From positions 1,240,001-1,304,000 of the forward strand of contig SRSI01000048.1 of the NCBI GenBank assembly GCA_005656395.1: a stretch of 64,000 nucleotides of DNA, in the 5' to 3' direction. The translations under genes and the position numbers were made by a program. The notes beneath the pieces were generated by a model. The model was not told the origin of the DNA. It ran no database searches and saw only the letters and a list, made by a program, of their open reading frames with translations. Below are positions 40,901 through 49,900 of this stretch, one piece after another. The stretch comes from Strongyloides papillosus (taxonomy: Eukaryota; Nematoda; Chromadorea; Rhabditida; Strongyloididae). How positions within the stretch are numbered: position 1 is the first letter of the stretch; every line of letters starts with the position of its first letter.

Positions 40901-43900
40901 GGTAAAAAGTGAATGTGATAATACAGCTGTGAAGTTATAGATTTTAATTTTGTTCTAAGCGGCAAAGCGTGTGATATATTTTTTATAAATATAATACTTA
41001 GAAAAAAGTGATAAAATTTTGATTTTATCGCAAAAAAAAGCTTTTATAATTTATGTGCATTATTTATATTTACCGTAATCATAATTAGAATAACCCTGTC
41101 CAGTTCCTTTAGATTTAGAATATCCTGTATCACTAGTGTACCCACCAGGAGATCTGCTTAGTGTATCAAGCTCTTTTTGTAATGTATGTAATGCATCTAA
41201 TTTGCTATGTGGTGTAGATGGTCCTGGACGGGCACCACTTAACAATGTTTGAGAAGCATATTGTCTCGGAGATCCAATATCAGAGCGACTTCTATATTTG
41301 TATGGTCTGGTAAAGGTATCAGTAGTCTGACGCTCTGATGCGCTAGCGCGTGAAAGATAAGACGTGCCAGAAAGATGACGCGATCTAGATGTTTCTTGTT
41401 GTGATTCTGAAAAAGGGGATAGATTCATGCATATTAAGATGAAATGGTTAAAGATATAATTAAGTGCTTATCACGTTCATACATAATACAACACAGTTAC
41501 ATTCAATTTTAGTTGAAAAACTTACCTCTACCTATTGCTGATGCTGAAAGTGATCTTTTTGGATGAGATAAACTGCTATAACCAGCTTCGGCATCACTAG
41601 CGTATCTAAGATAGTCTCCTGGTGTATAATGCCTTCGTAAGGTACTTCTTCTTGATTGTGATTGTATTTCATCTAACTCCTGAGCTAATTGTGCTCTTGA
41701 AGAAGAGTAATCAAGTCCTCCATCTCTTTGATTGTAAACATGATAAATTCTTGTAGAATGGATTTCATCGCCTTTTGTTTTTTCGAGAGAGACTAGTCTT
41801 TCAGTTAATTCAGTTAATGATTTTTGAAGTTGACGTGAATCTTGTAATGTCTAAAAAAAATTATAATTATTTAATTTTTAGTTTGGTAAATTTACTCTAG
41901 TTCCTAATCTTGCATTGACAGCGTCCTTGAATCCATCCAAGTATCCTTTTCTGAATTCATCATCTTTAGGATATGACTCTTCTAGTCTCTTGAGAAGACT
42001 ATCTGTAATATGATCTCCGAAAATGCCAGAATTACCATCTCTGAAACCTTGCATGTATCCTGGTGAATAACTTCCATCAGCAGGTCTTTTTTGTGCAAGA
42101 TTATGCATTGATGTAGACATACCACTTAACCCAGCATCTCTGAAATATTTATTATATGTAAAAATATATTGTGTATTTTTTTATTTACCTTAATCCTTTA
42201 ACATATCCCTCATGGAAACGATCATTTTGACCTCCAAATTCTTCATGCATATGTCTTCTGGCATTAGCGGCACTACCAAGACCTTTTGCGTCTCTAAAAC
42301 CTCTAGCGTATCCTTCTTCAAAATCACCTTTTTCTTTAGCATATGCTCCACTTTCTAAACCATGGACATCACGTTTTTCCTCTGTTAACAATGGTACAGC
42401 TTGTCCATTTGTGTACATGGAACGAGCTCTCTTAGATCGGTAACGTCTAAAAAAAGGGAAATGTTAGTTAAGGTAATTATAAAAAAAAATTAAAGTACCC
42501 TTGGATACACCAAAAGAGACAACAAGTTAAAAGAATTGCTAGTAGGAGAAGGAGTAATAAAAGTAATAGCCACCACCACGGCCATCCTGCAGAAATGTAT
42601 GGAGTTGCTGGAAAAAAAGGAAAGAAAGATTAGATTAAATTTGTTAAAAGGTAAATTAAAGGTATTTTTAGGTATAAAAAACTTTTTTTTAATTATATTA
42701 TCATGCATAACACTTCAAAATTGAATAACTCACAATATAAGACAACATAATGATATAAGTAAACATGATAATATAAGAATCAAAAGAATCATAAAGATAA
42801 CATGTTCAGCTCTAAAATACCACCACCATGGTTTTACATCTGTAAAATTTTTTTTTGTCAAATATTGTATTGTTTATTTTTTGATAAAAAAAATGTTTAA
42901 TTTTTATTATTTTTAAATCTTACCATCCGGATGTGTAGCCATTATTTGTTTATTTTTCTTCTATCCCAAATGTGTAAACATACGGATTAAGAGAATTTAA
43001 AAGAATATTATATAGTAATAAGGCAAATACTAAGATACTAAATAGAAATTAATATTCAATTAAATGAAAAATAGAGATAAATATGAAAAAAATATTTATA
43101 ATTTGTTCATAACGATAAGATAAGTAGGTTACACATTATTAAGTAAAAGATTATTTTCTTAATCAGTGTTGAAAGTTGGGAATAAAAAATTCACACAATC
43201 AATTGTTTATAATAGGTAATATAAAAAAATAATTATCTAAAATTAGTATCCTTATTAATTAATGTATAAAAATATTTACTCTACATAGTAAAAGTGTAAA
43301 ATCATTTAGAAATATCAAGTAATAATATAAAATTTAATTATAAACGACTACTAATTAATTCGTTTCCTTTTATTTTCATTAAACCAATGATTAATAATAA
43401 TAAAAGTTTTTGATATTTCAAATAACTTTACTAATAAAAAGGAATTATTTGTTACACATTTATACATACATAGTAAAATAAATATTAAAAACATTTATTT
43501 AATTGTGAATGAATTATTGATAACGCCATACTTAAAGCTACTACATTTTCTACATAATGTAAATTATTTTGGCGTAGCTTGAATTTGTTTGTTGATTAGT
43601 TATAAAACTAGTTTTTACTAATTTTCATATCTTGAATAAATATATTTTCAAGAAAATATTAAATTATCCTCTTTATAAGTATAAATAAAGACAGAAATAG
43701 TTATATAAATATTAAACGAAATAAGAAAAAGAGGTGGTATTTTGTGAATATGAAAAAAAGTAGCAAAGTAATAAATTGTGGTGGTAGATCTATGAGAAAT
43801 TGGTGTAATATTTTATCATTTTCTTTGACTGTCAAATGCGAAAAATATAAAATGTTTAAAATATAAAAGACAAATTTAACTTATTCTTTGATTTTATATT

Positions 43901-46900
43901 ACCACTCTTGGAAGAAAATTAAATAAAAGGAGTTATTATACCTTCTTCAGAAATATATTTAGTCACTCATGACTGATAAATGTTACAAAGTGATCTTAAA
44001 ATAAAGTTTAAAAAGTTAATCACACATTTTAATATAATGTTAAATAACTTTGTTTATCTAAATAATGTTATGATATCTTTTGAATAGCCTTCAATTATCA
44101 AAAGAATTTAATATATTCAAAAGTAAGGACATTTAAATTATTAAACAATTATAAAACTATTAAACTATCTAATAAAATTAATATAAGTAACAAAGTCTAC
44201 TTTTTAATGTGTTTCAAATATATATACCATATAAGAAATATATATAATATTAATCCATTTTTCATTTGAAAAATTAGAATAATAACTAGTATTTAGGAAG
44301 AAGAAATATACAAATAATTGGCTATGAAAATCATCCGTTAAAGTTTTAAATATGTATATATATAATATTTTTAATAAAAAATTACCCCGAAGTCTGGCAA
44401 TAACTGGATTATCATCTATCATCCATTTTGTATAAATTTCATAGTTATATGTTTTTCCTTTCACCAATGGATAATTCAAATATCCACCAATTACAGTACC
44501 ATCTCCAATTTTTACTTTAGTAGGTTCTGTAAGAGTATTTGTATCAAATGATGCAGCCACATAATATGGTAATCGTTGTTTATTAGCTGTAACTTTATCA
44601 GTTAGTTGTGTCCAGTTGGTATCACCAGCTGGGTTTCTTTCATCAACAACAACATAGTATCTTGTAACATTCTTCTCTGTGGCAGCTGGACTTATATCAA
44701 CTTCGAAGTATGTACCTTCTTGACCGATATTTTCAACGAAATATGGTGGTGGTACAATACAACATCCAGTTTTGTGTCCTTCTGCTTCTTGTGTTGTTGG
44801 TCTTCCTGCAGTCTTCCAACGATTCCATTCACCATTAACTTTAGCTCTAACTTGGAATACATACTCTGATGGAGCATGATTAAGATTAAAAACTAAATAA
44901 CATAATTTTCCACATCCATCTTTTGGACAAAGAAGTTCTTGACTCTTTCTTTCACTTTCCTCTATCCAAACAATATCATGTTGATTTAATCTAAGATACC
45001 TAACTTGATAGTGTGAAGCTTTATTCAATTCAACTGGTTCCCAATTTAATGACATAGCGTAATTTGTTTTATCACAATGTTTCAAATTTCTTGGTACAAA
45101 CCAACCTGGTGGAAGTGTACTATAAGCACCCCATGCTCCATCATTTTGATCTCTTAACATTAATGTTACATTGTATGTTGTTGATGGTTCTAATCCATAA
45201 ATAACAAAAGATGTAGCTCCAGCATCAACTTCGAAACTCTTAATGGTATTAAGGCGGACATATGGGAAGACTGATGCAAGTGATTTAGCTGCAATAACAT
45301 ATCCTTTATGTGATGTTCCCCATACAGGATCCCATTCAACAGTTAATGTTGTTGGTGTTCTATCTTTAAGTTTAAGAATGTGTTTCTTTCCAATACTTAG
45401 TGTACTATATGTTCCCCATAATATTTCACCATAACCACTGTTAGTTCCAGCTTGAACAGTAATGTTGTATATTGTTTCTGGGTTAAGATCTGTAAATTTG
45501 ATACTATTTCCTGGAACTGGTACAGTGTAATTCTTAGGATTACCAGCTTGGTAATTATCTGGATCAAGAGGTGATATAGTTATACGATAATGTGTCAATA
45601 AATCTTTAAGAGCTGGATCAAAGATCTCTGGTGGATTCCAGGTAACATGGAGCATATCTTCGCTTTTTTCTATCAATGTCAAATCAGTTGGTGGTCCAAG
45701 CCATGTAAGTAAACCTTGACCAATATCAGTTGTAGGGAAAGTTCCACTAATAAACCATAACTTTTTATCATCTGATAAACCTTGAACAGTAACATTGTAA
45801 ACGGTTACTGGTTTTAATCCTTTGAAGTGGAATTCTCTTTGATTACCTCCAACTGTATTTTTCTTTGGATTTTGATCTAAGGCCGATGCTACTGATATAA
45901 ATAATTCATATTTATTTATATTTTCACCAATAACACTTGGTGGAATCCATTTAACTCTTAAATTATCATGACCAGCTGATATTAATTGTAAAGCTCCTCC
46001 TAAGAAGTCACTATCATCTTTTCTTGTTGTTGAGAAGTAATCAGTTGACCATGGTCCCCAGTTTCCGGATTGTCCTTTAGCAGCAACAGCAAATTTATAT
46101 GTTGTTGATGGTTTCAATCCGTTTATTGTTGAACAAATGTTGTCTTTTGTTAAAAGTGGTGATGTAAAACCATCACAGGATAATTGATCACCAGAAATTT
46201 CAACTTCAATTGGATTTGAATCCTCGGCTCTTGGAGAGTACTTGATTTTATATGCAACAACTTGTGATTTTTCTGGGTATGGTGGTAACCATGTTAATTG
46301 AATTGATGTTGATTTTGTTAATACAGCCGTCAATTCTCTTGGTGGTCCTAATTCGCTACCAGTTGTTCTGGCTTCAATTGGTTCTGACCATGGACCAGGG
46401 CCTTCAGATGTAAAGGCACGAACTCTAAAACTGTACAATGAACCACTTTGAAGTTCACCAACAACAGTCTTAGTACGTGGTGATACACCTTCTTTAACTC
46501 CTTGATTCCATTCATCACGACCAGTTATTTCATATTCATATTGTGTAATCTCACCGTTTTGATCAGCACACTCTGGTGGGTCCCATTTATAACCTAATTC
46601 ATTTTCACCTCTTGACTCAACACGGAGATTTGTTGGTGGTTTTGATGGTGTTGATGCTTCAGTTTTAAATCTCCTTATTGTTTGTGGTGGCTTAACATTA
46701 CCAGAAAGATGTCCTGGTTTTCTTGGTGTAACAATAATTTCATATTCACTTCCTGGTTTCAAATCCTCAAGTAAAATCTTCTTATCTTGTACATTTTCTA
46801 GTTTAATAGGTTTTTCAGTTGATGTCTTTGATGTAACATCACATCCACCCAATTTTACAAGTTTATAACTTATATCAACACCGTACTTCCATGTTTGATC

Positions 46901-49900
46901 TTTCTCAGGGAGATCCCAAACAACTTCAGCTGTAGTTGGTGATTTTGGTTCAACACTAACAAATATTTCACCTGGTAATGATTGAGTTACAATAGTTGAT
47001 TTCTCAGACCATCTACTGAATTGTGGTTTAACACCTTCCTCAACAGTTTGTGTTTTCATTTTGATATCCCATCGTGTACCTGGTTGAGAATCGAATGTTA
47101 TTTCACTCTCTCCATCCATTGGTATGTTAACGCTTCCTCTGTTTGTTGTATTTACATATTCTAAGATAAATTCAACTTCATCACATTTCCATGTTTCTTT
47201 GTCTGGATTTTTCCAACTAATATGAACTGTATTAAAGTCTTCAGAGGTTATCTTCAAGTCACTTGGTGGTTCTTCTGGTCTACCACAATTAGTTTTGGCA
47301 TGTGTTTCGGGTCCAGGACTTCCTCGTTTATCATTCTTACCGACAACTCTTAATCTAAAGAAGTATTCTGTAGCTTCTGTCAATTCTTTGACGGCAAGTT
47401 TATAATTGTTATCACGAGAACGATGTCTAACAACATTTCCATACTCCTGCCAATCATTATCATCTTCACCTTTGTACTCAACAACATACCCAACAACATG
47501 ATCAGCTTGATCAGCCTCAACTCCTTGCCATTTAACACCAATAGCAGTTGGTTTAGTAAAATCAATTTCAAGACCATTCTCCAAGACAGGAATATTTTGT
47601 TGTTCGGTCTTGGTTTGAAGAGTATCACTCCACTCACCCCAATCACCACCTTCAACATGTGCCTGCACTTGAATATCATAATCTTCCTCTGGTTCAAGAC
47701 CAGATAAACGATAACAAAGCCTATCTTTTTTGGAGGAATCAGAACATATTAAATCATCAAGTGATACACGAATTTCTTTGAAGTTATATTTGTTACTTGG
47801 TGTATGTCTAACTTTGTACTCATCAATAACACCATTTGGTGGATTTGGTGGTAAGAAAGAAATTTCAACTGCATTAGGGAAACTTTGTTCTTCTCTTAAA
47901 TCACCTGGTGCTGATGGAGCTGATGGGAGGGTTGTGAATTCAAGCCATTCACTGAATGGACCTGCTCCTTTAGAATTTTTAGCTTTAACACGTATCTTAT
48001 ATGTATTATATGGAGCTAAATCATCGAAGAAAACTTTTCTTGTACTAACATGATCTGTCTTATTTTTTCCCCAGATGTCGACTGAAACTAATTCATATTC
48101 ATAATCTGTTATTTTTCCGTTTCTTTCCTCACAATCAATCTCATTCCAAATGACATCAGCTCTTGTAGCGGTAACAGAAACAGTATGTAAGTCATCTGGT
48201 GCTGCTGTTGGTGGGGCTTCTTCTGTTGTAACAAGGATAGGTTTAGACTCCTCTCCAGGTAGTGAGGTATGAGCAGTAACTTTTATTTCATATGTAGCAT
48301 CTGGTAAAAGATCTTTAAGAACTGTATTAGGATCATTTGTATTAACAGTAATTGGTTTAGCATTTTGATCACCACATTCCCCAAGTGATTTTAATTGATA
48401 TGTTACAGTATATCCAGTAATTTCACCATTTGGATTATCTGGTTTTTTCCATGAAACCTGTACAGAATCTGGACCAAGTGCCTTAGCCTTTAATCCAGTT
48501 ACACTTGATGGGGCACCTTCTGGTGTTTTAATTTTAAGCTCATTACTCCAATCAGAGTGTCCAGCATCATTCTCAGAACGTAATCTAAATCTCCATTCTG
48601 TATTTGGTTGGGAATCAAAGAATTTATCAACAACTGATGATGGTAATTCAATTTCTTGTTTTCTACCTTTACCAATGTAGTATTCAATACGATATTTGAT
48701 ATCACCACATCTGTAAAATAAACATTATATTTTTAAAAATAAATCACATTAATTGTTTATTAAATCCATAATTTTTAATGATCAATTGGATATTATAATT
48801 GTAAAATGATTATGATAATATTCCGTGTTTGGTCATACTTAACTAATGTATGTTTAAGAATTTATAAAAATTAGACTTTATAACCAGATTTTACTTATAA
48901 TTAATTTACATCGTTATTTGTTATTTAGATTATATAATGTAAATAATTATATGCATGATAAATATTTAACATTCTGGTTAATATTTAACGTGAACAATAT
49001 TTTATAATGAAAAGGAAATTTAAAATAAAGTCTAAGTAATATTTAGCAAGAAAATAAGTTATCAAAAAATATAATAACTCATGCTAATTTTTAAGTTTAA
49101 ATTTAAAAAAAACATACCTGAATGATTCTTTTGGTGGTGATTGCCAACTAACTTTAACTTGAACATTTGATGGAGCAGATGCTTGAACATTTATTGGTGC
49201 AGCTAATGGTGAATCACAACCAGTTCTTCCTTGAGCTTCAGGTGATGGTTGTGAGGTACGTTGTTTCTTATCAACAACCTTAATTCTAATCAAATATAAT
49301 GTATCAGCTTCAAGACCAACAAGTTTCTTGTGGTAATTTCTTTTAACAGAATCATGCTTAACTATATCTCCATACTCATTCCATACAGAGTTGTCAGAGG
49401 TTCTAAATTCAATAATATATCCACTAATCTTATTCTTTGGATCTGATACAGCTTTCCAGTGTACATTTAAAGAATGTGGTCCTTCACTTGTGACGACTGG
49501 TGCCTCCAAAACGATTGGAATCTTAAATGGAGCTGTTTGGTAGCTAGTCCAAATTTCTGGTCCGTAACCACGTTTAGTACCAGCAGATAATGATACGTTA
49601 TAGTATGTCTCTGGATTAAGATTTTCAAAGATGTAATCAAGTGTAGGGTGGTCAACATAGTAAGTTTGTGGTACACTATTAATATCATCCATTGAAACAA
49701 TATTCAATCTATATTGTGTTATATGACCATGAGGATCAATTGGTGGTACCCATTTAATGTGAAGAGAATGATCAGTTTTTTCAATTAATTCTATAGCTCT
49801 TGGAGCATCAGGTAATACTTGAAGTGTATTAGCAATGACAGCTGAACTCCATGGGCCATATATTCCACCTTCAATTCTAGCAGATACTTGAGCCTTATAT

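Follow-up and report, generated by a model that had tools for sequence, protein, structure and literature searches.

Two membrane-span exons, mutually exclusive by reading frame, in the let-805/myotactin homologue of Strongyloides papillosus

The locus

The window analysed here is a stretch of 64,000 nucleotides from the genome of the nematode Strongyloides papillosus (contig SRSI01000048.1), and positions are counted from its first letter. On the minus strand lies the 3' portion of a giant gene for a fibronectin-repeat protein; judged from its relatives, the gene is a homologue of let-805/myotactin. Two neighbouring exons, A and B, each encode a membrane span, and they lie between the last long exon for the ectodomain and the first exon for the common cytoplasmic tail:

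42607-42499, minus strand: exon A, 109 nucleotides, the standard membrane-span exon (ATPYISAGWPWWWLLLL..TCCLFWCIQG), recognised from phases, frame and relatives
42839-42734, minus strand: exon B, 106 nucleotides, the alternative membrane-span exon (DVKPWWWYFRAEHVIF..SLCCLIL), recognised from phases, frame, a chance test and relatives
44386..48670, minus strand: last long ectodomain exon (the part in frame), with fn3 repeats, exiting in phase 1 (..PVIARLR + G)
42189..42446, minus strand: exon C, the first common cytoplasmic exon (RYRSKRARSMYTNGQ..), entered in phase 2, with known relatives

A protein search with the tail as query (428 amino acids, joined from an alternative first exon described below, exon B and four tail exons) returned 23 relatives, two of which are named LET-805 (P0012 and P0018). 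An organism is given for 16 of these, all of them nematodes. With an ectodomain query of 433 residues, and long relatives taken at E values up to 1e-20, 38 long relatives were found, the best from Strongyloides stercoralis at 95% identity. The open frame at 48670-44387 encodes 1428 amino acids, and nine fn3 stretches lie within these last 1428 ectodomain residues. The predicted protein therefore has the giant fibronectin type III ectodomain of LET-805/myotactin, as well as a single span (one per frame-keeping product) and a tail in common with nematode LET-805. The relatives of tail and ectodomain, including the two tail relatives so named, bear out the assignment to let-805 made in an earlier note on this DNA. 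The 428-residue tail query matched no Pfam family, and the Rfam scan gave no match. A second copy of the gene was also considered and rejected: searches of the genome gave a single match at the DNA level and three for exons, every one of them at this locus.

Exons A and B

Exon A is flanked by the acceptor TTTTTCCAG and the donor GTACTT, and exon B by the acceptor TTTTACAG and the donor GTGAGT. Both are entered in phase 1 and left in phase 2. With the junction codons completed, A encodes ATPYISAGWPWWWLLLLLLLLLLAILLTCCLFWCIQG (37 residues) and B encodes DVKPWWWYFRAEHVIFMILLILILSCLLISLCCLIL (36 residues). Each peptide contains PWWW, a hydrophobic run and a CC pair, and the best 19-residue hydropathy is 3.31 for A and 3.29 for B. 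The outer border of A is without charge (a Trp belt) and its helix is nearly pure Leu; the outer border of B carries K, R, E and H. From the CC pair to the basic inner border RYRSKRAR there are three residues in B versus seven in A.

When either A alone or B alone is joined, the frame stays open across all four tail exons that were examined. If B is joined to A, a stop follows within the first few residues of the next exon; if neither is joined, a stop comes 20 residues past the ectodomain. With equal phases, and a frame that is kept with exactly one of the two, A and B are mutually exclusive by reading frame. The earlier note had given the coordinates, the lengths of 109 and 106 base pairs and the equal entry and exit phases, all of which agree with the sequence; PWWW, the hydrophobic run and the CC pair that it had seen in both exons are there in the peptides, and the frame break that it had predicted for the joining of both is the early stop after B and A.

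The spans in other nematodes

DNA was read for this genome, and other nematodes were compared as protein models (P numbers). Counted by a pattern that was written after the sequences were seen, the 38 long relatives divide into 27 with an A-type span only, one with B only (P0050), one with both (P0053) and nine with none. Among the span-less models, P0057 ends ahead of the span; the remaining eight break off at it or skip it. The S. stercoralis model P0024 has an A-type span alone, and A is recognisable even in models from Trichinella and Trichuris; by these comparisons A is the standard span. Across the 92 proteins compared, B or a B-like span occurs at the ectodomain border in P0013, P0050 and P0053 alone.

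In the Acrobeloides model P0050 the order is ..PVIARLR-DVRGWWARVPWYYF..LIALCCC-tail, so that B stands in frame between ectodomain and tail, without A. In the Nippostrongylus model P0013, ..GRSR-DVRGWWSRVPWWW..LIWLCC is followed by an odd stretch. A dual-frame test shows that this stretch fits exon A of that species, as known from P0026, translated out of frame: 36 of 36 steps agree, and 200 shuffles gave 11 at the most. P0013 thus joins ectodomain, B and A, with A out of frame, and exon order and phases are therefore the same in Nippostrongylus; here the predicted frame break is found in an existing annotation.

Aligned without gaps, the B peptide of the window is identical to that of Acrobeloides at 13 of 36 positions (score 66, equalled in 29 of 20000 shuffles; the best other register within 4 residues scores 30) and to that of Nippostrongylus at 11 of 35 (score 47, equalled in 111 of 20000 shuffles; the best other register scores 3). 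D1, V2, W5, W6, I29, L31, C32 and C33 are among the positions common to the three B peptides. The Pristionchus model P0053 has two consecutive membrane spans in one frame, the first of which is B-like and divergent; counted by hand, it takes six residues fewer to reach the CC pair. A comparison with let-805 of other nematodes, suggested earlier, therefore finds A widespread and B in register in two further genera: the order and phases of the pair are kept in Nippostrongylus, and B is in frame in Acrobeloides, where A was not seen.

Two other peculiarities of the gene models were observed near the ectodomain border. The filarial models P0042, P0044 and P0048 end directly after the ectodomain (..ARQRG); these are either split models or the result of a stop just inside the intron, retention of which would then yield an ectodomain in soluble form. 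Elaeophora P0003 starts inside an out-of-frame exon A (28 steps fit a filarial A exon), an artefact of start-codon annotation.

Origin of the pair

Since the exons lie next to each other, they had been taken for an exon duplication. PWWW stands at residues 4-7 in the B peptide of the window versus 10-13 in A, an offset of six residues, and because the motifs are out of register in the window their match was rejected as proof of duplication. In the B peptides of Acrobeloides and Nippostrongylus, PWYY or PWWW occupies residues 10-13, matching its position in A. Window B against window A scores -6 in register, with 18217 of 20000 shuffles as good. Acrobeloides B scores 52 against Nippostrongylus A, a value reached in 726 of 20000 shuffles, with up to 48 in other registers, and 47 against window A, reached in 619 of 20000, with up to 40 in other registers. 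Nippostrongylus B stands out less clearly against its own A, at 33 (3272 of 20000; 2009 of 50000 when the lead-in is taken by itself). The pair may plausibly go back to an old tandem duplication, which these scores do not prove: Acrobeloides B lies above most shuffles against A, neighbouring registers come close to it, and the two exons of the window do not themselves show a duplication.

A probable alternative first exon

Two further features lie between the ectodomain exon and exon B:

42942-42924, minus strand: probable alternative first exon, ATG GCT ACA CAT CCG GAT G (MATHPD), 19 nucleotides, exiting in phase 1
42943..44385, minus strand: AT-rich stretch of about 1.4 kb with 19% G+C, filling the gap between the ectodomain exon and this first exon

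The phase of the first exon fits B and A alike. Similar peptides occur elsewhere: MSVLPD starts P0016 (295 amino acids), with the A peptide directly after it, and MAIHPD (Ditylenchus P0054) and MGVWPD (Mesorhabditis P0046) are inserts that follow the ectodomain and directly precede A. All three have the length of MATHPD, with M1, P5 and D6, and among the 92 proteins the pattern M-x-x-x-P-D turns up once more, in an unrelated position. From these relatives, 42942-42924 is probably a conserved alternative first exon, with a predicted product that has no ectodomain and consists of a short stub outside the membrane, one span and the whole tail; the AT-rich stretch is a putative site for an internal promoter. 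The models P0046 and P0054 speak against this, placing the peptide inside the giant protein, a placement that may reflect the merging of a first exon into a longer model. An internal exon of the giant protein at 42942-42924 was set aside for this species; the ectodomain exon is left in phase 1, and translation by hand from the AG dinucleotides shortly before the ATG meets a stop. The donor at 42924, from which the earlier note had let a junction to the span exons start, most probably closes such a first exon, MATHPD, which has relatives elsewhere.

Alternative explanations for exon B

On the evidence above we think it likely that B and A are an old frame-exclusive exon pair, each supplying the single span of nematode LET-805/myotactin. 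B could instead be a chance open frame in intron DNA, and its 25% G+C is indeed nearer to that of the introns (12-21%) than to that of exons A, C and D (39-41%). Hydrophobic residues are easily spelled by AT-rich DNA, and for this reason a scan with a shuffle control was made. The scan covered the 1778 nucleotides between 44385 and 42608 for a stop-free, frame-compatible and hydrophobic exon of 75-160 nucleotides, with splice-site thresholds equal to the scores of B itself and hence fixed after the fact; B was the sole exon to pass. When this stretch was put through dinucleotide shuffling, 4 of 2000 shuffles contained a comparable exon with the hydropathy cut set to 2.0, and 0 of 2000 did with the cut set to 3.0. 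Because such exons are rare in shuffles, and because chance would leave the in-register relatives unexplained, this explanation is hardly credible and was rejected. A poison exon or decaying relic is another candidate: B would be spliced together with A or never, and its inclusion would shut the mRNA off via an early stop. The stop after B and A fits this, as do the weak splice sites of B, and the Nippostrongylus (P0013) and Pristionchus (P0053) models do join B or a B-like span with A sequence. A poison exon needs no conserved span peptide, however, and so the conservation of B counts against it: register and CC border are kept across the Strongyloides type, Acrobeloides and Nippostrongylus, with phases shown for Nippostrongylus, and P0050 joins B in frame without A. 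We regard a poison exon as unlikely. It has also to be asked whether B belongs to the short form only (42924 to 42839) and never to the giant ectodomain, in which case the exons would mark two promoters and there would be no swap of spans. The first exon is separated from B by an intron of just 84 nucleotides, and the joined frame is open. The three relatives of the first-exon peptide (P0016, P0046 and P0054) nevertheless have it before A, both in-register relatives of B (P0050 and P0013) carry B after an ectodomain, and no junction of a first exon with B occurs in the 92 proteins, all of which makes the restriction of B to the short form quite improbable.

Several observations weigh against the frame-exclusive pair. 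When scored with a matrix built from eight other sites of the gene, the acceptor of B (6.5) is lower than seven of the eight others (5.2-11.2) and its donor (5.0) is lower than all eight (5.9-8.6). B stands alone in just one of the 38 long models, and the evidence for it outside the window consists of two in-register gene models and a divergent one; P0050 and P0013 are gene models, the latter frame-broken overall, and it is from protein models, not DNA, that the other nematodes are known here. The resemblance is weaker when the 13-residue lead-in is taken alone, where 671 of 50000 shuffles are as good for window B against Acrobeloides and 2235 of 50000 against Nippostrongylus. A profile with three B rows, in a search that scored the 7993 candidates sharing most words, gave 33 matches, none of them with B.

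According to the explanation that we favour, the frame-exclusive pair, A would be the default span and B a minor one whose use is probably regulated; B differs in the charges of its outer lead-in and in having fewer residues at the inner border. Either exon would link the giant ectodomain (donor 44386) to the common tail (acceptor 42446). Transcripts with both exons or with neither would shift frame and should be destroyed, and so only one-span proteins would be made. The first exon at 42942-42924 would feed the same acceptors, presumably from an internal promoter, and yield a form with span and tail that lacks the ectodomain. On this view B would be spliced in S. papillosus.

The cytoplasmic tail

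Between YSNYDY and the conserved C-terminus, the tail has a long, charged, coiled-coil-like repeat (about 40844-38357, minus strand). It is also found in S. stercoralis P0024, and Rhabditophanes P0035 has a different charged repeat at this place; P0001, P0004 and P0006 are without it, and its motif occurs in P0024 alone among the 38 long relatives. By this long charged repeat the Strongyloides-type tail differs from that of Caenorhabditis elegans LET-805. Retention of the tail introns 41895-41851 and 41073-40845 (minus strand) would add VNLPN and GKYK, respectively, followed by a stop (GKYK was read by hand); both lie just past conserved exons, and they are possibly alternative tails.

Comparison with known systems

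The closest known analogues of the A/B pair are exon 17 of Drosophila Dscam and exon 18 of arthropod N-cadherin (the papers below are cited from excerpts of their text). In Dscam two alternative exons, 17.1 and 17.2, likewise give the span of a large adhesion protein. Their choice goes with a dendritic or axonal location, perhaps set by the span's border on the cytoplasmic side, and an axonal motif at that border of one of the exons is mentioned as unpublished (PMC2566808). Dscam is an unrelated fly gene, whereas the LET-805 pair belongs to a fibronectin-repeat protein of nematodes and can be entered from either of two exons upstream; for LET-805 an effect on sorting is putative. The mutually exclusive exons ME-18a and ME-18b of N-cadherin, also an unrelated protein, resemble A and B in supplying the single span of a large adhesion protein. 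Each encodes part of the span, and of the arthropod genomes examined all but that of Apis have kept them (PMC2655722). The two forms show graded homophilic binding in cells and no targeting difference in neurons (PMC2655722), which calls for caution on any claim about the sorting of LET-805.

In C. elegans, LET-805 sits at the basal hemidesmosome-like junctions of the epidermis (PMC5887144) and LET-805 connects the epidermis of nematodes both with a touch axon and with the basement membrane that overlies muscle (PMC5887144, PMC6952388). The excerpted text of PMC5887144 mentions no alternative spans for LET-805/myotactin and describes the activation or regulation of LET-805 as not understood. 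A knock-in with a C-terminal wrmScarlet tag has been published (PMC6952388); if C. elegans shares the arrangement, such a tag would label all forms together, and isoforms may therefore have been overlooked. Among the papers listed in the literature searches, which covered excerpts of PMC5887144, PMC6952388, PMC11373843 and PMC6514414 and did not extend to the original myotactin paper, none deals with alternative membrane spans for let-805.

Biological significance

The earlier note had named sorting, partners or cleavage as what a swap of spans could change. By analogy, B may alter the sorting or clustering of LET-805, perhaps also its partners at the hemidesmosome-like junction, or it could prove to be without visible effect. 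If true, the choice of span and the ectodomain-free start would be two concrete control points for LET-805. More tentatively, and with somewhat less than even confidence, LET-805 could be seen as an old two-by-two kit, in which two starts (the ectodomain or the M-x-x-x-P-D stub) are combined with two spans. The stub would occupy cytoskeletal linkers without a hold on the matrix and the B form would offer a different membrane setting, so that the kit might act as a switch strengthening or releasing the attachment of muscle to epidermis and of axon to epidermis.
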